This document shows positions 24,421-39,442 of a stretch of DNA of 64,000 bases, one piece after another. The position numbers and the translations under genes are program-made. Position 1 is the stretch's first letter. Each line of letters opens with the position of its first letter. A model generated the notes under the pieces. That model saw nothing but the letters and a program-made list of their open reading frames with translations, had not been told where the DNA came from and did no database searches. The DNA comes from Lentimicrobiaceae bacterium. Lineage in GTDB: Bacteria > Bacteroidota > Bacteroidia > Bacteroidales > F082. Location of the stretch: positions 1 through 64,000 of the forward strand of contig JABJIE010000080.1 in assembly GCA_018661505.1 (NCBI GenBank), written 5' to 3'.

Positions 24421-25686
24421 ATGAAAAAACAATCATTTCTACTTGTGATTCTTACTGTTATGATGTCAGGTATTCTATCATCGCAGGTTCCTTTTGGGGT
24501 TAATTTAGCAGGAGCGGAATTCGGTACAAATATGCCTGGAACATACAACATCGATTATACATATCCCACAAGTTCCGAATTAGACTACTATAAGTCGAAA
24601 GGGCTTGATTTAGTTAGGTTACCCATTAGGTGGGAAAGAATACAGGAATCTTTAAATGGAAATATTAACTCTGCCGAATTACTCAGATTAAACTCATTTT
24701 TGCAATCAGCTGAAGATCGAAATATTGATGTAATTATTGACTTACACAATTACTGCAGATATAAACTAAACGGAGTTTATGAAATAATTGGATCGCCAAA
24801 TCTTAGTATATCTGATATCAAGGATTTGTGGACTAAGTTATCATATGAGCTAAAGGATTCTCCAAATATATGGGGCTATGGAATTATGAATGAACCTCAT
24901 GATTTATTGCCAAGTGCTCCATGGTTTAATATAGCCCAAGAGATTATTTATGGAATTCGTTCTAGTGATATTGATACAAGAATAATTGTTGGTGGAGATA
25001 GTTGGAGTTCTGCTGAAAGATGGCTGCAGTACAGTGATAACCTTAAAATCCTTGTTGATCCCTCGAACAAGTTAATATATGAGGCCCATGTTTATTTTGA
25101 TAATGATGCGTCGGGTAGTTACAACCAAAGTTATGATGGGGAAGGTGCTTATCCAAATATTGGAATTGATAGAGTGACCCCATTTGTAAACTGGTTAGAA
25201 GATAATAATCTAACTGGTTTTATAGGCGAGTATGGTATTCCAGCTGACGATGATCGTTGGTTGATTGTACTTGATAACTTTTTAAGTCACCTTGAACAAA
25301 ATTGTATCAATGGAACCTATTGGGCAGGAGGTCCTTGGTGGGGTAATTATAAACTATCCATAGAGCCTTACAATGGAAATGATAAACCTCAAATGAGTAT
25401 CGTGGAGAAATACCTTACCACAAATGTTAATTGTTCAACGATAATTTACAATGATTTGAACGAATCTACCACTGAATTAATCGTTTATCCAAATCCATTT
25501 TCAAACCATCTATTCATAAATGATATTAAAGATGGTGAGCTAATAGAAATTTATGATATCAGTGGAAGGTGCTATAAGAGTAAAAGATCAAAGGGTACAA
25601 TGATTGACGGATTAGGTTTGCTAATGCCTGGAATATATATAGTTAGGTCTCAAGAAGGTTTGATAAAAAAAATAGTCAAGTATTAA
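24421..25686 (+). CDS. secreted glycoside hydrolase family 5 (cellulase-type) with T9SS tail
   Basis: Predicted endo-beta-glucanase-like enzyme exported by Sec and then T9SS. The 421-residue protein has a signal peptide ending near ILSSQ. The GH5 TIM barrel spans about 22-340: PFGVNLAGAEFG, the strand LVRLPIRWERIQ, IDLHNYCRY, acid/base Glu in GYGIMNEPHD, the EAHVYFD strand and the nucleophile Glu in FIGEYGIP. A T9SS sorting domain occupies about 352-421 (LIVYPNPFSNHLFIND, then PGIYIVRSQEG). The target is probably a beta-glucan or cellulose-like polymer. A lipocalin-like lipoprotein gene and a GH18 gene follow. Confidence 0.9.
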   Translation: MKKQSFLLVILTVMMSGILSSQVPFGVNLAGAEFGTNMPGTYNIDYTYPTSSELDYYKSKGLDLVRLPIRWERIQESLNGNINSAELLRLNSFLQSAEDRNIDVIIDLHNYCRYKLNGVYEIIGSPNLSISDIKDLWTKLSYELKDSPNIWGYGIMNEPHDLLPSAPWFNIAQEIIYGIRSSDIDTRIIVGGDSWSSAERWLQYSDNLKILVDPSNKLIYEAHVYFDNDASGSYNQSYDGEGAYPNIGIDRVTPFVNWLEDNNLTGFIGEYGIPADDDRWLIVLDNFLSHLEQNCINGTYWAGGPWWGNYKLSIEPYNGNDKPQMSIVEKYLTTNVNCSTIIYNDLNESTTELIVYPNPFSNHLFINDIKDGELIEIYDISGRCYKSKRSKGTMIDGLGLLMPGIYIVRSQEGLIKKIVKY

Positions 25687-25738
25687 TTAAAGCATCATAT
25701 TATTAGATTTGTAAAAGAATTTGTTCAAAACAATTTAA

Positions 25739-26233
25739 ATGAAAGAATGCATTTACATAGTTATCATTAGCATATTTTTACATGGATGTAATGAAAATTG
25801 CGATGAAGTAAATACCAATGATATAAATGGTCTGTGGTCTCTAGAAGTTATGGAGCAAAAAGATATTAATACGGGTGAATGGCGTGAATGGAGAAATGGA
25901 ATGCAAGGATATTTACTCTATGACGATAATGATAACATGGCCCTGCACCTCACAACTGAAGGCTATGAAGAAACTGATTTAAGATTTCCCAATTTTACCG
26001 ATACCATTTCTATTGATGCGTTGAAACATTTAACAAACTCTTATGTCTATTTTGCAAAATATAAAGTAGATAAAGAAAACAATATTGTAGAACATTCTAG
26101 AATTTCTCATTCCAATCCTGGAGATTGGAATAAGGTGGTAAGAAGAGGATTTGAACTTAACAAAGATACGCTGATTATAAGGCCATTAGAAGATAGCAAT
26201 TCTGGCTTGAGGTTGACTTGGATTAGATATTAA
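25739..26233 (+). CDS. lipocalin-like lipoprotein
   Basis: A 164-residue protein with a short signal peptide and lipobox FLHGC (Cys near residue 17), so probably an outer-membrane or periplasmic lipoprotein. The mature part, NGLWSLEVMEQKDINTGEWR and then GYLLYDDNDNMALHL, resembles the lipocalin-like family (Lipocalin_5 type) that makes a small beta barrel. The ligand is unknown. It starts 52 bp after the GH5 gene in the same direction and may share its transcript. Confidence 0.65.
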   Translation: MKECIYIVIISIFLHGCNENCDEVNTNDINGLWSLEVMEQKDINTGEWREWRNGMQGYLLYDDNDNMALHLTTEGYEETDLRFPNFTDTISIDALKHLTNSYVYFAKYKVDKENNIVEHSRISHSNPGDWNKVVRRGFELNKDTLIIRPLEDSNSGLRLTWIRY

Positions 26234-26450
26234 GGCATGAAAATATAATAATTAATGCTAATGTTTAGTTTTTATAAGAGAGTTAATCATAAGAACTTAC
26301 TTATGCTAAAAGATATTCGCATCTAGCTTTTTCAACTATCACGTTTGGGTCAGGTAATCCCGAGCTTCATTATTATGAAGTAATTATCAAAAACAGCATT
26401 TCAACTGTTAGCATTAGCGAAACAATTTTATTAACTAAAAATACAGAGCT

Positions 26451-28028
26451 ATGAAGAAACTAACAATAACACTATTGGTATGTATTTTGACATTTTCTGC
26501 GGTACAAACTATTGGACAAACAAATGACAGAATTGTATTAGGCTATTTTCCTTCTTGGTCAGAAACATGGACCACCACAAACCAAAACTCCTCACTAAGA
26601 GAAGTCCCTAATTTTGTTAATTATATATTTCTTGCTTTTGCAAAACCAAATTTAGAGTATATCTCAGGCTCCTATGATATATCAGCTACAGGAATAGAAA
26701 CTCCATATGATGGTTGTCAACTAAAGGAGAGTGTTTCTGCTCTTAAGGATAAAGGTATTAATGTAATATTATCCATTGGTGGTGAAACTTATTGGGGAAC
26801 CCCTGACGCATATAACATAGATTATCAACAAATAAAGGATCTTGTTGATGACATAGGGTTTGCTGGTATAGATTGGGATTATGAGCCCAATGGTTCCTTT
26901 GCGGAAATAGGTAATCCAACTAATGTTCAGCATTATATAGATTTTTTTAATAACTCAAGAGCACTAATGCCAGAAAGTGAAGGTTACATTTTAGCATGTG
27001 CTCCCAGCGGTGTTGGGGCTCTGGGAGGACAAATTAATGATGATCCAAATTCTCTATTTGCATTTGCAAATAGAAATAGTCTCACAGGAGAAAATGATAA
27101 TAACTTGTATAATGGAGCAGCTGTAACAAATGGGATTAATTTATTCGGATTTACATCAACAGGTCATATGATACCAGTGATACAGAGTGTTGGAGATAAA
27201 ATAGATTTGATAGCATATCAAGGTTATAATGCTGGTGGTAGTACAAACCGTTCAATAATGTATGACGCATACGCTTATTATGCTAATCAGTATGGTTTCA
27301 GTATTGCTGCGGGTGTTCATTATCCAAATGAACCGTGGGGTCCCTATTATGAATACACTCATACAAATGTAGCATCATTATCAAATCACATACTCCAACA
27401 TCCTGAAAGAATAGATAGTGATGATGGCATCATGATATGGCAAATTCTTCTTGAAAACCCAGCTTTAAATAGCTCAGCCTATTCATATATGAATGTAGCA
27501 TCAATGGTTTTAGGAGGAACCTCAGAAAATACAGCGATTCAAAATGCAAATAATTATTCATTGGCTCCTTATACTGGAGGTGCACAAGGATGTAATTCCG
27601 GTGGTGGCGGTGTTTATTGTGGTGTAAATGAATATAATATTAGCTATTCATACCCCGAACCAAATACGCAAGTTTATTATGAATGTAAAATATGGTATAA
27701 TCAATGGTATGCTAACCCAAATGAGGTTCCTGGTGTTAATAGCGTATGGGTTGAAGAATCAGTATGTTACGAAGATCCTAGTTGCATTGCTTCTATAGAG
27801 GATAACTCGGATAATAATATTATCGTATTTCCAATACCCTCCAAAAGTTATATCCAAACCTTAGGTGCAAATAAAAATGAGAAATATTTTATATACAATA
27901 CCTTTGGTCATAATATTGAATCTGGTTTTATAAGTGATGACCAAATGATTGACATTAGAAGTTTATCATATGGGTTATATTTTCTTAAATTTGAAAACGG
28001 AACAACAATAAAATTTCTAAAGAATTAA
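26451..28028 (+). CDS. secreted glycoside hydrolase family 18 (chitinase-like) with T9SS tail
   Basis: A 525-residue exported enzyme. The signal peptide ends near TIGQ (residue 23). The GH18 barrel runs about 25-360, with ILSIGGETY for strand 3 and the catalytic block FAGIDWDYEP. The Asp-x-Asp-x-Glu is intact, but the first Asp of DxxDxDxE is Ala. The strand-6 motif reads IAYQGYNAGG where MxYD is usual. A Cys- and Trp-rich region (about 385-450, IWYNQWYANPNEVPG) looks like a CBM5/12-type chitin-binding module. A T9SS sorting domain closes the protein (IIVFPIPSKSYIQT, then YGLYFLKFENG). It probably acts on chitin or another GlcNAc polymer. Confidence 0.87.
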   Translation: MKKLTITLLVCILTFSAVQTIGQTNDRIVLGYFPSWSETWTTTNQNSSLREVPNFVNYIFLAFAKPNLEYISGSYDISATGIETPYDGCQLKESVSALKDKGINVILSIGGETYWGTPDAYNIDYQQIKDLVDDIGFAGIDWDYEPNGSFAEIGNPTNVQHYIDFFNNSRALMPESEGYILACAPSGVGALGGQINDDPNSLFAFANRNSLTGENDNNLYNGAAVTNGINLFGFTSTGHMIPVIQSVGDKIDLIAYQGYNAGGSTNRSIMYDAYAYYANQYGFSIAAGVHYPNEPWGPYYEYTHTNVASLSNHILQHPERIDSDDGIMIWQILLENPALNSSAYSYMNVASMVLGGTSENTAIQNANNYSLAPYTGGAQGCNSGGGGVYCGVNEYNISYSYPEPNTQVYYECKIWYNQWYANPNEVPGVNSVWVEESVCYEDPSCIASIEDNSDNNIIVFPIPSKSYIQTLGANKNEKYFIYNTFGHNIESGFISDDQMIDIRSLSYGLYFLKFENGTTIKFLKN

Positions 28029-28125: not shown

Positions 28126-29409
28126 ATGAGCAGTAAAAAAATTGGATTCTGGTCGAGTACATCTCTAGTAGTTGGTAATATGATTGGTTCGGGAGTATTT
28201 TTATTACCGGCATCCTTGGCTGCATTCGGATCAATTAGTCTGTTAGGTTGGCTATTCTCATCATTGGGAGCCATTTTGTTGGCAGTTGTTTTTGGCAAAC
28301 TAGCCAGAGTGGCACCAAATACCATAGGCGGCCCCTATGCTTACACTAGATTAGGTTTTGGGGATTTTCCCGCCTATCTTGTTGCATGGGGTTATTGGAT
28401 CTCCATATGGGCAACAAATGCAGCAATTGCTGTTGCTTTCGTTGGATATTTGAATGTTTTTTTCCCTGTCATTTTAGAATACAAACCATTGGCAATTTGC
28501 TTGGGTTTGGGAGTCATATGGATATTTACTTGGATAAATTCAAAACCCATAAGAACAGTTGCTCTTATTCAAATAATAACAACTATTTTCAAGATACTAC
28601 CCATATTCCTCGTGGGCTTCATAGGTATAGCATATATAAATTCAGAAAATTTTTATCCCATTAACATAAGTGGCGAATCAAATTTTTCTGCAATAACTTC
28701 CACTACAACATTAACTCTCTTTGCTTTTTTAGGAATGGAAAGTGCAACTGTGTCAAGTAAATTCACAAAAGATGCATCAACTACCATAAGAAAGTCCACT
28801 ATGATGGGAACTCTTGTAACAGTAATTGTGTACATACTAAGTTCTGTTGCTATTATGGGTATTGTTCCACAAGAAATTCTGGCTAAATCCAGTGCTCCCT
28901 TTGCTGATGCCGCTGGCGTATTCTGGGGAGAAGCCGCTAAGTATGTAGTTGCAGGAGGTGCAGTGGTAGCAACCCTAGGCGCTTTAAATGGTTGGATTCT
29001 AATTCAGGGACAAATACCAATGGCAGCGTCAAGTGATAATCTCTTTCCAAAGATTTTTGGGAAAGTAAATAGTAATAACTCCCCAATTCTTGGCATTATA
29101 TTATCAAGTATTCTTGCTTCCATATTAATGAGCTTGAATTATTCTAAAAGTTTAATAGACGCTTTCACATTTATGATGAAACTTTCTACTCTTTCAGTTT
29201 TAACACCATACTTGTTGTCTACGCTTAGTTTAATGATTATAATATGGAAGACTGAGGGAAAGATTTCATTGGGAAAATTAATTTTGATTTCTTTAAGTGT
29301 TGTTTTTTGTGTCTGGGTAATTATAGGTTGTGGACTAGAAATAGTATGCTGGGGTCTATTGTTATTAGCGGTTGGAATCCCATTTTATTTTAAATTAGTA
29401 AAAAAATAA
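28126..29409 (+). CDS. APC-superfamily amino acid/amine permease
   Basis: A 427-residue inner-membrane transporter with about 12 helices. The N-terminal GFWSSTSLVVGNMIGSGVFL is the APC family substrate and ion site (GSG motif in TM1). Further conserved parts are GGPYAYTRLGFGDF in TM2-3 and LTLFAFLGMESATV in TM6, similar to the basic amino-acid/polyamine antiporter branch. It sits 10 bp upstream of a Rieske oxygenase gene in the same direction, suggesting uptake of the oxygenase substrate, possibly an amine or amino-acid derivative. Confidence 0.88.
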   Translation: MSSKKIGFWSSTSLVVGNMIGSGVFLLPASLAAFGSISLLGWLFSSLGAILLAVVFGKLARVAPNTIGGPYAYTRLGFGDFPAYLVAWGYWISIWATNAAIAVAFVGYLNVFFPVILEYKPLAICLGLGVIWIFTWINSKPIRTVALIQIITTIFKILPIFLVGFIGIAYINSENFYPINISGESNFSAITSTTTLTLFAFLGMESATVSSKFTKDASTTIRKSTMMGTLVTVIVYILSSVAIMGIVPQEILAKSSAPFADAAGVFWGEAAKYVVAGGAVVATLGALNGWILIQGQIPMAASSDNLFPKIFGKVNSNNSPILGIILSSILASILMSLNYSKSLIDAFTFMMKLSTLSVLTPYLLSTLSLMIIIWKTEGKISLGKLILISLSVVFCVWVIIGCGLEIVCWGLLLLAVGIPFYFKLVKK

Positions 29410-29419
29410 GCGGATTTAA

Positions 29420-30526
29420 ATGGAAAGGTTCTATGTAAACCCAGATATTAGAGTTGCAGAAACACTGCCAGCCTCATTTTATCGAAGTCAAAATATTTTT
29501 AATGCTCTTAAGGATAAAGTTTTTGAGCAAACATGGCAATGGATAGGAGATACAAATAATATTTTACCGAGTGCGGAAAGTGTTTATCCATTTGTATTTC
29601 TTGATAAGTTCATTTCTGAACCTATGGTAATGATTAAAGATGGGACGGGAGTTATAAGATGCTTCAGCAATGTATGCACACATCGTGGAAATATAATAGC
29701 ACATAATCCTGAAAAAGCTGATCAATTGGTTTGTTTGTACCATGGAAGGCAATTTAATTTGGATGGTAGTCTAAAAAGAATGCCAGAATTTAAAGATGCC
29801 AAAGATTTTCCAAGAGCATGTGATAATTTGCATGAATTTGAAGTTTTTAATTGGTCAAATCATTTATTTGTTGGACTGAAGCCCATATTTGATTTTACTG
29901 AAGTTATTGATGTTATGAATGAACGCATAGGGTTTTTACCAATTAAGAATTTTAAACTGGATAAAGCCATATGTTCCGATTATTATGTCAATTGTCATTG
30001 GGCGTTGTATTGTGATAACTATTTGGAAGGTTTTCACATCCCATTTGTTCATGAGGATCTAAATATCGCTTTAAATTATGGTAAGTACACCACAGAGTTA
30101 TATGAACACATGAATTTACAAATAGGATACGCCGGAGGAACGGATGAAGTTTTTGATTTACCAGAAGGCCATCCCGATGAAGGTAAACAAATTGCAGCAT
30201 ACTACTACTGGGTCTTTCCAAATATCATGTTTAATTTCTATCCTTGGGGTTTATCAATAAACCTTGTCAAGCCAATAAGTCCTACAGAAACAAAAGTATC
30301 TTTTATAACTTATGTTTTTGATGCGAGTAAAATTGATAAAGGTGCTGGTGCAATGCTTAATAAGGTGCAAAAGGAAGATGAGTTCGTAGTTGAAGGGGTT
30401 CAGTCTGGAATACAATCCAAATATTACACTACTGGACGGTTTTCTCCAAAGATGGAAAAGGGAGTACATCATTTTCATATGTTGTTATCCAAATATCTTA
30501 ATAACAAAGTAAAGGTTGCAACATAG
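29420..30526 (+). CDS. Rieske [2Fe-2S] aromatic-ring-hydroxylating oxygenase alpha subunit
   Basis: A 368-residue cytoplasmic oxygenase. The Rieske domain (about 40-145) has the cluster motif CTH...CLYHGRQF, and the catalytic domain holds the mononuclear iron site DNYLEGFHIPFVH. The single-gene layout and the NYLEGFH form resemble choline-monooxygenase-like and carnitine-oxygenase-like members rather than dioxygenases with a beta subunit. No ferredoxin or reductase is adjacent. It is cotranscribed with the upstream APC permease, which supports a small nitrogen-containing substrate. The exact reaction is unknown. Confidence 0.88.
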   Translation: MERFYVNPDIRVAETLPASFYRSQNIFNALKDKVFEQTWQWIGDTNNILPSAESVYPFVFLDKFISEPMVMIKDGTGVIRCFSNVCTHRGNIIAHNPEKADQLVCLYHGRQFNLDGSLKRMPEFKDAKDFPRACDNLHEFEVFNWSNHLFVGLKPIFDFTEVIDVMNERIGFLPIKNFKLDKAICSDYYVNCHWALYCDNYLEGFHIPFVHEDLNIALNYGKYTTELYEHMNLQIGYAGGTDEVFDLPEGHPDEGKQIAAYYYWVFPNIMFNFYPWGLSINLVKPISPTETKVSFITYVFDASKIDKGAGAMLNKVQKEDEFVVEGVQSGIQSKYYTTGRFSPKMEKGVHHFHMLLSKYLNNKVKVAT

Positions 30527-36944: not shown

Positions 36945-37221
36945 TACGATTATTTTCCCTTCCCAATACCAAGGCCAGAAGTTTATGGTCTAGAAGTTTC
37001 ATTGTCTGGTGCTGGAGATTATGTAATAAACACATATCAGACGAGATTACATTGATGATGTATCGGTGAGAGTATATCCAAATCCTACCTCAAACAGTCT
37101 TAATTTAGAGTTTAATATGATTGATGAGTCTACCGTTGATATTTACCTCCATGATAATACGGGCAATGTAGATGATCTTTATTTTATTGGAACAACTATA
37201 TCTCCTAAGAATTCATACTAA
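36945..37221 (+). pseudogene. remnant of a T9SS cargo gene (sorting-domain fragment, frameshifted)
   Basis: Two overlapping frames read like one decayed protein. From 36945, in frame 0, comes ...RPEVYGLEVSLSGAGDYVIN and then a stop shortly after. One base off, from about 37051, comes DDVSVRVYPNPTSNSLNLEF followed by NMIDESTVDIYLHDNTGN, ending at TAA 37219-37221. VYPNPTSN followed by the strand ESTVDIYLHDNTGN is the start of a T9SS C-terminal sorting domain. No start codon or catalytic domain remains. It is a degraded gene end between ppc and the aminotransferase. Confidence 0.7.
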
Positions 37222-37301: not shown

Positions 37302-38228
37302 ATGGTACACGGCACGCACAATGCAAAAGTTGATAAAAGAAATGATGACATCTTTATTCATGTAAATGGTGAACTACTAAAAAGGAAGGATGCTAAAATA
37401 TCTGTTTTTGACAGTGGATACCTTGTGGGTGATGGGGTATGGGAGGGTATGAGACTTAAGGAAGGAGTCCTCATTTCTCAAAGCTTACATTTTGATAGAT
37501 TGTGGCAGGCCGCTTATACCATAGGAATCAAACTTAATTTCAACCGCAAGGAACTTGAGGAGAAGATATGGAGTACTATTAATGCCAATGACATGCATGA
37601 TAATGTTCACATCAGAATTATGGTTACACGCGGTATAAAAAAAACACCATCCCAGGATCCAAGGTTAACAATATCAGGACCAAATCTTGTAATCATAGCT
37701 GAATTTAAAGAAGCTTCTGGTGAAACAAAGGAACGTGGTATAACTTTATTTACGAGCACTTATAGAAGAGGATCACCAGACTATTTAGATCCACGATTGA
37801 ATTGCCATAGTAAACTACATGAGGTTCAAGCATTAATTCAGGCCATTGAAGCAGGTGCGGATGAAGCTCTTATGCTTGATGTAAATGGGTTTGTTTCAAC
37901 ATGTAACGCCACAAACTTTTTCATAATTAAAAATGAAGAAGTATGGACATCAACTGGTCAGTATTGCATGAATGGGATAACTCGAGGAAAGGTAATTGCA
38001 TTATGCAATGAGAATAACATAGTTTGTTTGGAAAAGAATTTTTCATTATTTGATGTTTATGGCGCTGATGAAGCATTCGTAACAGGAACTTTTGGTGGTT
38101 TAACACCCGTAACTAAAATTGATGGTAAAATAATAGGAAAAGGTAATTATGGCTCCTTTACAAGAAAACTGAGTAATATGTATGATAAGGCCATTGCTGA
38201 GGAAGTTAAAAGAAATGTTAATAAATGA
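37302..38228 (+). CDS. class IV PLP aminotransferase (branched-chain aminotransferase-like)
   Basis: A 308-residue fold-type IV PLP enzyme. The N-terminal MVHGTHNAKVDKRNDDIFIH precedes the family core GDGVWEGMRL. The PLP-forming Lys171 is in CHSKLHEVQA, and the phosphate-binding region is FVSTCNATNFF then GITRGKVI. The closing TGTFGGLTPV is typical. It overlaps the next gene by ATGA, so translation is coupled. It resembles the aminotransferase half of the plant branched-chain-aminotransferase-like fusion proteins. The amino donor and acceptor are not predictable. Confidence 0.88.
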   Translation: MVHGTHNAKVDKRNDDIFIHVNGELLKRKDAKISVFDSGYLVGDGVWEGMRLKEGVLISQSLHFDRLWQAAYTIGIKLNFNRKELEEKIWSTINANDMHDNVHIRIMVTRGIKKTPSQDPRLTISGPNLVIIAEFKEASGETKERGITLFTSTYRRGSPDYLDPRLNCHSKLHEVQALIQAIEAGADEALMLDVNGFVSTCNATNFFIIKNEEVWTSTGQYCMNGITRGKVIALCNENNIVCLEKNFSLFDVYGADEAFVTGTFGGLTPVTKIDGKIIGKGNYGSFTRKLSNMYDKAIAEEVKRNVNK

Positions 38229-38953
38229 ATGAAGATAACATAAAACGAATATGTCTTTGGTCTGGTCCAAGAAACATTTCCACTGCATTAATGTATTCAT
38301 TTGCGCAACGTGAAGATACACAGGTATTTGATGAGCCTCTATATGCCTATTATTTGAATAATAGTAAAGCCTCAAAATACCACCCAGATTCACAAAAGAT
38401 AATTTCTTCAATGGAAACAAATGGTAGTAAAGTTATTGATATGATGATGGGTAGTCATGATAAGCAAGTTGTTTTTTTTAAAAATATGACTCATCATCTA
38501 ATGAATTTAGATCGATCTTTTTTAAATAATACAGTGAATGTTATTTTAACAAGAAACCCCGTTGAAATGTTACCATCGTATGCAAAAGTTATCAATAACC
38601 CATCCATGGACGATGTTGGGTATGCTCTTCAGGTTGATTTATTAAACTATTTAAATGAAAGAGATTTAAATCCATTAGTCATTGACTCAACCAAAGTATT
38701 ATTAAATCCAGAGAAGGAATTGATGTATTTGTGTAAAAGAATTAATATTCCATTTAATGACAAGATGTTATTATGGAAACCACAACCCATAAAAGAGGAT
38801 GGTGTATGGGCTAAACACTGGTATAAAAATATTCATAAATCTGAAGGATTTAATAAGTATAAACCAAAAACGGAACCATTTCCCATGGATCTTAATGCTT
38901 TGTTGGAATCATGTATTCCCTGCTATGATGAGCTTATGAGGTTTTCGAATTAA
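38225..38953 (+). CDS. P-loop sulfotransferase-like protein
   Basis: A 242-residue cytoplasmic protein with an N-terminal phosphate-binding loop of the sulfotransferase type (LWSGPRNISTALMYSFAQRE, residues 12-31), DEPLYAYYL, a second nucleotide-contact stretch VILTRNPVEMLPSY and a C-terminal WAKHWYKNIHKSEGF. It belongs to a family found beside class IV aminotransferases. In plants the equivalent domain is fused ahead of the aminotransferase. It starts inside the stop codon of the aminotransferase gene and is followed by a strong terminator, so the pair forms a complete two-gene unit. The substrate is unknown. Confidence 0.82.
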   Translation: MNEDNIKRICLWSGPRNISTALMYSFAQREDTQVFDEPLYAYYLNNSKASKYHPDSQKIISSMETNGSKVIDMMMGSHDKQVVFFKNMTHHLMNLDRSFLNNTVNVILTRNPVEMLPSYAKVINNPSMDDVGYALQVDLLNYLNERDLNPLVIDSTKVLLNPEKELMYLCKRINIPFNDKMLLWKPQPIKEDGVWAKHWYKNIHKSEGFNKYKPKTEPFPMDLNALLESCIPCYDELMRFSN

Positions 38954-38997: not shown

Positions 38998-39033
38998 TAA
39001 AAAAAGCTCATCCAAAGTAAGGATGAGCTTTTT
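38998..39033. terminator. bidirectional terminator after the sulfotransferase-like gene
   Basis: AAAAAGCTCATCC pairs with GGATGAGCTTTTT around a 7-base loop; poly-A before and poly-T after let it serve both convergent genes. Confidence 0.9.
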
Positions 39034-39067: not shown

Positions 39068-39442
39068 TTAATTACTTTCTCTACTATTGAGGAAGAAAAG
39101 TAAAGCTAATACGGCTGTTATTATAGCATTACCGTAAGCTGTAGCACCTCCGGCAGCGCCGTCAAAAATATGATAACCAATGATTAATAACCACATTAAC
39201 TCTCCAAGAGCCCATAACATTCCAAATCCTTTTAATGAGTCACCTGCAATATCTGGGGTTTTCCACAATAAGATTCCTAGAAAAAGGAATGTTACACCCA
39301 TAAATTGACCTATTGTTGTCGTTTCTCCATTAATAATCTCAAAATTGGCCATTTCGAAGAACATATCTGTGAAAAATAAGCCCATTATTCCATTCAATAA
39401 AAAAATGATGGAATTAATTCTGAAAACTAGTTTTAAATTCAT
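39068..39442 (-). CDS. small integral membrane protein (hypothetical)
   Basis: A 124-residue protein with four hydrophobic helices and little else (FRINSIIFLLNGIMGLFF, FMGVTFLFLGILLW, FGMLWALGELMWLLIIGY, AIITAVLALLFFLN). It resembles DUF4345-like small membrane proteins but the assignment is weak. Its promoter and leader are nearly identical to those of the minus-strand membrane-protein gene about 1 kb upstream, so the two are probably expressed together. Function unknown. Confidence 0.7.
   Translation of the reverse strand: MNLKLVFRINSIIFLLNGIMGLFFTDMFFEMANFEIINGETTTIGQFMGVTFLFLGILLWKTPDIAGDSLKGFGMLWALGELMWLLIIGYHIFDGAAGGATAYGNAIITAVLALLFFLNSRESN

Follow-up and report, generated by a model that had tools for sequence, protein, structure and literature searches.

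In the window, that is the whole stretch of 64,000 nucleotides of Lentimicrobiaceae DNA which was analysed, a gene for a class IV aminotransferase-like protein (AT) and a gene for a sulfotransferase (ST) follow each other on the plus strand. The features of this locus are the following:

37302..38228, plus strand: AT, class IV aminotransferase-like protein without Schiff-base lysine (308 aa; open reading frame and Pfam match)
37800..37802, plus strand: codon (aat) of Asn167, the Schiff-base lysine position of normal class IV enzymes
38225..38228, plus strand: ATGA start/stop overlap of the AT and ST genes
38225..38953, plus strand: ST, PF19798 (Sulfotransfer_5) P-loop sulfotransferase with the SGPRNIST loop and R110...S118 (242 aa)
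39001..39033, strand undefined: perfect stem–loop of 13 pairs between the AT/ST unit and the convergent gene at 39068-39442

Both open reading frames are confirmed at the place, on the strand and with the ATGA overlap that a preliminary description of this DNA had given, and the overlap suggests that translation of the two genes is coupled. The AT start at 37302 is supported by the MxHGTHNA motif, which AT shares at its N-terminus with its own subgroup. As had also been described, AT and ST are an isolated two-gene unit: the 410 bases upstream of AT are free of any open reading frame of at least 80 aa, and the next gene after ST (39068-39442) is convergent. The gene preceding the pair is a PEP carboxylase-like open reading frame (named by eye). 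The "perfect terminator" of the preliminary description stands as far as the stem is concerned, whose 13 pairs are all perfect; as the terminator scan reports it for the minus strand alone and shuffled sequence yields 1.0 (sd 1.0) terminator-like sites by chance, the stem is a plausible, not a proven, terminator, probably shared by the AT/ST unit and the convergent gene. Further upstream on the plus strand we noticed by eye a gene remnant (37051-37221) which reads DDVSVRVYPNPTSNSLNLEF and resembles the sorting signal at the C-terminus of proteins secreted by Bacteroidota, an APC-type amino-acid permease followed after 10 bases by a Rieske-type oxygenase-like open reading frame (28126-30526, ∼7 kb upstream of the pair), and two adjacent secreted glycoside-hydrolase-like open reading frames, one cellulase-like and one chitinase-like, with C-terminal sorting-type ends (24421-28028).

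The association of both genes was determined in an even draw of 395 genomes from the phylum of the window (Bacteroidota), using the PF19798 profile for ST and, on the same 395 genomes, an AT profile at E <= 1e-70. ST is found over the cut-off in 54 of the genomes (55 at E <= 0.001) and AT in 61, all at 387 bits or more. AT is present in 53 of the 54 genomes with ST and in 8 of the 341 without it (Fisher p = 6e-56). In the sole ST genome without AT (G168) the ST match is a fragment of 61 positions, and the eight AT genomes that lack a PF19798 protein all belong to the same family (f55). The two genes are adjacent, i.e. within 1.1 kb, in 51 of the 53 genomes holding both, with AT first in 27 and ST first in 24; of the two non-adjacent pairs one is on different contigs and one is 330 kb apart. 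The second sample comprised 185 genomes from the class of a proteobacterial locus (G473). Here the AT search gave 23 matches, 17 with the lysine and 6 lysine-less; ST occurs in 5/185 and lysine-less AT in 6/185 genomes, all five ST genes adjoin AT, and the sixth lysine-less AT is cut by the contig end. In the two evenly drawn samples together, ST accompanies the lysine-less AT in 58 of 67 AT genomes. The pairing is not due to chance, since 51 of the 53 evenly drawn genomes that hold both genes have them side by side. Thus, the joint function which the preliminary description had proposed, and which it had made dependent on co-occurrence in other genomes, is strongly supported by the presence of AT in 53 of the 54 ST genomes, by adjacency in both gene orders and by a bacterial ST–AT fusion protein (see below).

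In addition, we collected 100 ST contexts from both sources, in which one locus is counted twice (L055 = L088). AT lies beside ST in 83 of them; in two of these AT is a fragment where the contig ends, and in one it is 944 bases distant. The 17 contexts without adjacent AT are G291 and 16 further named genomes, and in all of these 16 AT is found elsewhere in the genome. The named loci, at least 80, were ranked by similarity to the window's ST and hence favour clade A (defined below), which is why all rates were taken from the evenly drawn samples. The window's own ST is absent in 60 of 60 near relatives, and the patchy distribution of the pair is what lateral transfer or frequent loss would produce. 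In Poribacteria, ST and AT are unlinked within the genome in 10 of 11 loci (L097, L101, L105, L106, L115, L121, L125, L129, L132, L133) and adjacent in one (L100); in five of the unlinked loci a hisF-like open reading frame precedes AT.

The ST protein matches PF19798 with 142.4 bits at a cut-off of 23.2, and its structural model is confident (pLDDT 95.2). The top structural matches of this model are sulfotransferases, several of them PAP-bound: the PAP-bound tyrosylprotein sulfotransferase TPST1 reaches Z 14.5 (rmsd 4.0, 215 residues aligned), within a tie with the sulfotransferase domain of Ols (Z 14.4) and the CurM domain (Z 14.0). When the ST profile is compared with solved proteins only CurM (E = 9e-6) and Ols (E = 1.7e-4) stand out, with a weak match spanning less than half of the protein. 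ST shares with TPST and with the CurM/Ols sulfotransferases the fold and the pattern of the PAPS site, but it differs from them in its length of ∼242 aa, its family PF19798, its own signature motifs (DEP.YA.YL, K.M.HH and DGVWA..WY) and its near-obligatory AT partner. The preliminary description had proposed to inspect the P-loop lysine and serine residues for PAPS binding. The loop SGPRNIST (S13..T20) is nearly invariant but has Arg16 in place of the lysine that is usual at this position of the 5′-phosphosulfate loop of sulfotransferases, so that the expected lysine is not there. On the positive side, R110 and S118 are invariant in two alignments, and an Arg/Ser pair with this 8-residue spacing forms the PAPS 3′-phosphate site of sulfotransferases. 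From its fold and from these motifs ST is predicted to use PAPS. In the ST of one family (L037 and L038, i.e. G373 and G436, and also G361 and G412) some tens of extra residues separate the P-loop part from the K.M.HH motif, so that the Pfam match falls into two pieces.

For the supply of PAPS, the window's own genome encodes two APS kinases. Among the 395 genomes APS kinase is present at E <= 1e-30 in 52 of 54 ST genomes vs 85 of 341 others, and at E <= 0.001 in 52 of 54 vs 154 of 341; the ST genomes without it are G179 and G396. This association is confounded by phylogeny, since 39 of the 54 ST genomes belong to two families. APS kinase without ST is found in four genomes of the main family. 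Taken together, the "sulfate-group-handling partner" of the preliminary description fits the fold of ST, its PAPS-site motifs and the presence of APS kinase in the genome.

The AT protein matches the Pfam family Aminotran_4 (PF01063) with 136.9 bits at a cut-off of 28.5. In a structure search its model finds PDB entry 7z79, an "aminotransferase-like protein from Variovorax paradoxus" with 47% identity, at Z 35.2 (rmsd 2.3, 298 residues aligned) and the branched-chain aminotransferase (BCAT) 5e25 at Z 32.3 (rmsd 2.2, 283 residues aligned); whole-fold matches to ordinary class IV transaminases range from Z 29.3 to 32.3 among the best 50 matches. By profile and structure the fold is thus PLP fold type IV. 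The protein also matches 18 NCBIfam models, including those for BCAT and D-amino-acid transaminase (DAAT), in all 18 cases below the curated cut-off (best 241.5 vs 363). On these cut-offs and on the missing Schiff-base lysine we rejected a plain BCAT/DAAT annotation.

At the site of this lysine the window's AT has Asn167, and at the site of the glutamate that binds PLP it has Thr200. Among the 81 partner proteins of at least 250 aa (one of them a duplicate locus) the lysine site is occupied by asparagine in 56, by histidine in 25 and by lysine in none. True paralogues, some from genomes which also bear the pair, have the lysine (INPRIKSLNYLNNILAK) in the alignment, in which the motif is ungapped between the groups; opposite this lysine stand the histidine of the ST-first systems (DSKIHHNNLINNILAK) and the asparagine of the AT-first systems (DPRLNCHSKLHEVQAL). 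We refer to the AT-first systems with asparagine as clade A and to the ST-first systems with histidine as clade B; two loci (L114 and L120) in which ST is first on sequence reading, in GC-rich DNA with over-long open reading frames, were counted with clade B. The lone, unlinked and plasmid-borne AT loci are likewise without lysine where the site was read. In the phylum sample the reading covers 45 of the 61 AT genomes, and the remaining 16 were taken as lysine-less because all 61 score at least 387 bits, whereas lysine-containing class IV proteins score at most 268. In the alignment the BCAT of the window's own genome (L003) shows valine in the lysine column through a gap shift of one residue, and another class IV protein of this genome (L001) has a gap there and was excluded from the tree; the fourth hit of this genome (L004) yielded no reading frame that could be used. 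The AT model is weak at this site, with a mean pLDDT of 64 for residues 161-170, and the assignment therefore rests on the alignment and on a PDB entry: the Variovorax protein 7z79 has Asn174 at the lysine site, and entry 9j32 is its N174K mutant, altered at the same site as Asn167 of the window's AT. As the Schiff-base lysine is replaced by asparagine or histidine in all AT partners read, the "class IV transamination" of the preliminary description is contradicted by the sequence; transamination is unlikely and AT is probably not a transaminase.

In a tree, the 104 lysine-less ATs (including one duplicate) form a single clade with a support of 1.0 against 11 other class IV sequences, and 7z79 falls inside this clade. 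The histidine group has a support of 0.97 and the ST-linked asparagine group 0.81, while the union of all asparagine proteins is weakly supported (0.53). We suggest that the class IV fold was probably re-tooled once. The Variovorax protein resembles the window's AT in identity, fold and the asparagine at the same site, and groups with the plasmid relatives; unlike the window's AT it belongs to an Asn/Ser subgroup whose plasmid members have no ST nearby. Searches of the open-access literature found no paper on it among the matches listed, in one case the best 10 of 29.

The lysine-less proteins share with BCAT and DAAT (PF01063, fold type IV) the fold, the phosphate cup and an arginine equivalent to R97. 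In the window's AT the cup consists of R66, G225-I226-T227 and G262-T263, where the residues of IlvE are presumably R59, G219-I220-T221 and G256-T257; R66, G225, T227, G262 and T/S263 are kept in both clades, with one truncated row gapped. Across phyla R66 and R105 are found in all rows and T227 in all but one truncated row. On the other hand, the Schiff-base lysine is missing, the IlvE residues Y31, Y95, Y164 and, in clade A, E193 are replaced, and both clades differ from BCAT by a common Trp47 and by Asn202 and His103, which are present in all but one sequence each. The glutamate that binds the ring nitrogen of PLP is absent in clade A and retained in clade B, so that clade A may not use PLP at all. 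To judge from these residues, the lysine-less AT seems capable of binding a phosphorylated cofactor or ligand and would work without a Schiff base. The divergence of ST and that of AT are correlated (Spearman 0.72 and 0.76), as expected for any two co-inherited genes.

The two domains are also found in one polypeptide. A planctomycete contig (L110) codes for a single uninterrupted protein of 539 aa with PF19798 at 4-233 and PF01063 at 280-503, i.e. with ST first, as the preliminary description had stated it for plants. AT and ST accompany each other in many bacterial groups, and at least one of these has the fusion. According to the preliminary description, plant branched-chain-aminotransferase-like proteins consist of an N-terminal P-loop sulfotransferase-like domain fused to a class IV aminotransferase domain; on this view they would combine both domains with ST ahead of AT, as in clade B and in the planctomycete protein. 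PF19798 is one of nine search models in a survey of plant sulfotransferases (PMC12506393), in the main text of which the word "aminotransferase" occurs 0 times; its passages on PF19798 mention no ST–AT fusion. In the passages of the open-access literature found for PF19798 the family is merely listed, and the open-access search gave nothing for three candidate Arabidopsis loci.

Clustering of the open reading frames in the 100 ST contexts revealed no shared pathway gene but merely lineage-local neighbours, for example, in Flavobacteriaceae, open reading frames resembling AI-2E, dnaB, tgt and transketolase (by eye). Hence the type of substrate was judged from AT relatives that lack a neighbouring ST and whose function may have drifted. 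Proteobacterial plasmids carry such relatives with no ST nearby (20 records matched, 16 regions examined, 15 of them annotated, and the lysine site read in 9); together with the eight ST-less genomes they argue that the AT-like protein can work without ST. A gene of an amino-acid ABC importer is located directly beside AT in 9 of the 15 annotated regions (L200, L201, L203, L205, L208–L212), and in L213 only an ornithine-cyclodeaminase-type gene separates the two. A TRAP component is beside AT in L199 and L207, and other neighbours are found in L198, L202 and L204. In 4/15 regions (L201, L205, L209, L210; L205 and L210 are close Paracoccus relatives, and the lysine site was read in L201 and L205) AT is directly followed by a ClC chloride channel, and the cluster contains a gene named proC. 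This recurrent cluster, composed of a GntR regulator, an amino-acid ABC importer, the lysine-less AT, ClC and the proC-type gene, resembles a transferable unit for the catabolism of some amino acid. On a plasmid of Mameliella alba (L211) a choline-sulfatase-family gene overlaps AT by 4 bases; the region L211:5986-12821 comprises an ABC importer, AT, the choline-sulfatase-family gene and, after it, genes for a DHDPS-family protein, a DAO-type oxidoreductase, an SDR and an aldehyde dehydrogenase. In the window's phylum an amino-acid permease precedes AT in 5 of the 8 ST-less loci (by eye; one confirmed by Pfam), and an AT–ST pair of the second class (L237) is situated among genes for a BCCT transporter, sarcosine oxidase and a DAO-type protein. 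We therefore favour an amino-acid-type compound, possibly N-substituted or sulfated, as the substrate. A hydroxyproline- or betaine-type compound is a lead, given by MR/MLE, OCD, DHDPS, ALDH, BCCT and sarcosine-oxidase neighbours in a few loci.

These observations are best read, with a probability of about one half, as a PAPS-dependent sulfation to which a lysine-independent reaction of an amino-acid-type metabolite is coupled. AT and ST would share a single metabolic step, each contributing one half, or would carry out two consecutive steps. With PAPS and a small molecule as partners, ST would transfer or remove a sulfo group. The AT-like half retains the class IV fold and the phosphate-cup residues for PLP or PMP, but it has lost the lysine of the internal aldimine and the rest of its pocket is remodelled; it might hold PLP/PMP (or a phosphorylated substrate) non-covalently or work without a cofactor, and would perform a step other than transamination on the amino-acid-type compound that ST sulfates or desulfates. 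We infer the non-covalent binding of the cofactor, the amino-acid type of the substrate and a physical contact between AT and ST.

Other explanations have to be weighed against this reading. That AT is an ordinary branched-chain or D-amino-acid transaminase which by chance lies beside a sulfotransferase is hardly credible: the whole-fold matches and the hits to BCAT and DAAT models would agree with it, but all 18 NCBIfam matches stay below the curated cut-off, asparagine or histidine takes the lysine site in the partners read, and the association with ST is far too strong (p = 6e-56). AT could also have no catalytic activity and serve ST as a substrate-binding or regulatory partner; ST alone would then do the chemistry. 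The loss of the lysine in both clades, the loss of the PLP glutamate in clade A and the near-obligatory pairing are in line with such a pseudoenzyme; nevertheless, we consider it unlikely, as the polar pocket residues R66, R105, T227, H103 and N202 are kept across phyla and as the ST-less relatives adjoin transporters, a setting more easily explained for an enzyme than for a regulator whose ST is missing. Concerning the other half of the pair, the arginine in the SGPRNIST loop might indicate a different P-loop group-transfer enzyme instead of a PAPS sulfotransferase. This is very unlikely in view of the top structural matches, which are sulfotransferases and in several cases PAP-bound, of the invariant R110 and S118 with the spacing of the 3′-phosphate site, and of the association with APS kinase.

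A more specific chemistry, which we regard as distinctly unlikely, is that ST sulfates a hydroxyl group of an amino-acid-type compound and that the lysine-less AT, with non-covalently bound PLP/PMP or with its own residues, eliminates the sulfate; the ST-less relatives would then use substrates already bearing a leaving group. The closest solved relatives of ST by profile, CurM and Ols, are sulfotransferases that sulfate a β-hydroxyl to drive an elimination. This match is weak, however, covers under half of the protein, and by structure TPST is equal. The ClC channel directly after AT in four of the 15 annotated ST-less plasmid regions and the choline-sulfatase-family gene overlapping AT in one plasmid locus would suit such a chemistry, but these neighbours belong to loci of different subgroups and could have a role in other reactions, and two of the four ClC loci are the close Paracoccus relatives. 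Dehydratases of the ColD type, in which PLP chemistry proceeds without a Schiff-base lysine and with histidine in its place, provide a precedent. The resemblance is one of principle only, since ColD belongs to fold type I, whereas the lysine-less ATs are of fold type IV with asparagine or histidine. It is a long shot that such a two-enzyme route, with sulfate as leaving group and elimination by a lysine-less fold type IV protein, is widespread in many bacterial phyla and perhaps in plants; if true, it would represent a new chemistry of the PLP family (or of the PLP fold) and a new role for sulfate beyond signalling and detoxification.

With respect to previous knowledge, the fold, the Pfam families and the crystal structure of a relative are already known. 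That AT and ST are paired, that they occur in two gene orders and as a bacterial fusion, and that the lysine is replaced in two different ways was not found among the matches listed in a search of the open-access literature. The AT/ST pair suggests that both proteins take part in a step of sulfur metabolism which has apparently not been described. Few catalysts are as well understood as PLP enzymes, nearly all of which have the lysine; a lysine-less AT together with ST is a clear lead to a sulfur-containing metabolite and to an unusual cofactor chemistry. In fact, the plasmid records annotate the genes of lysine-less ATs as aminotransferases, and models of amino-acid metabolism may therefore credit genomes with a transaminase that is absent.
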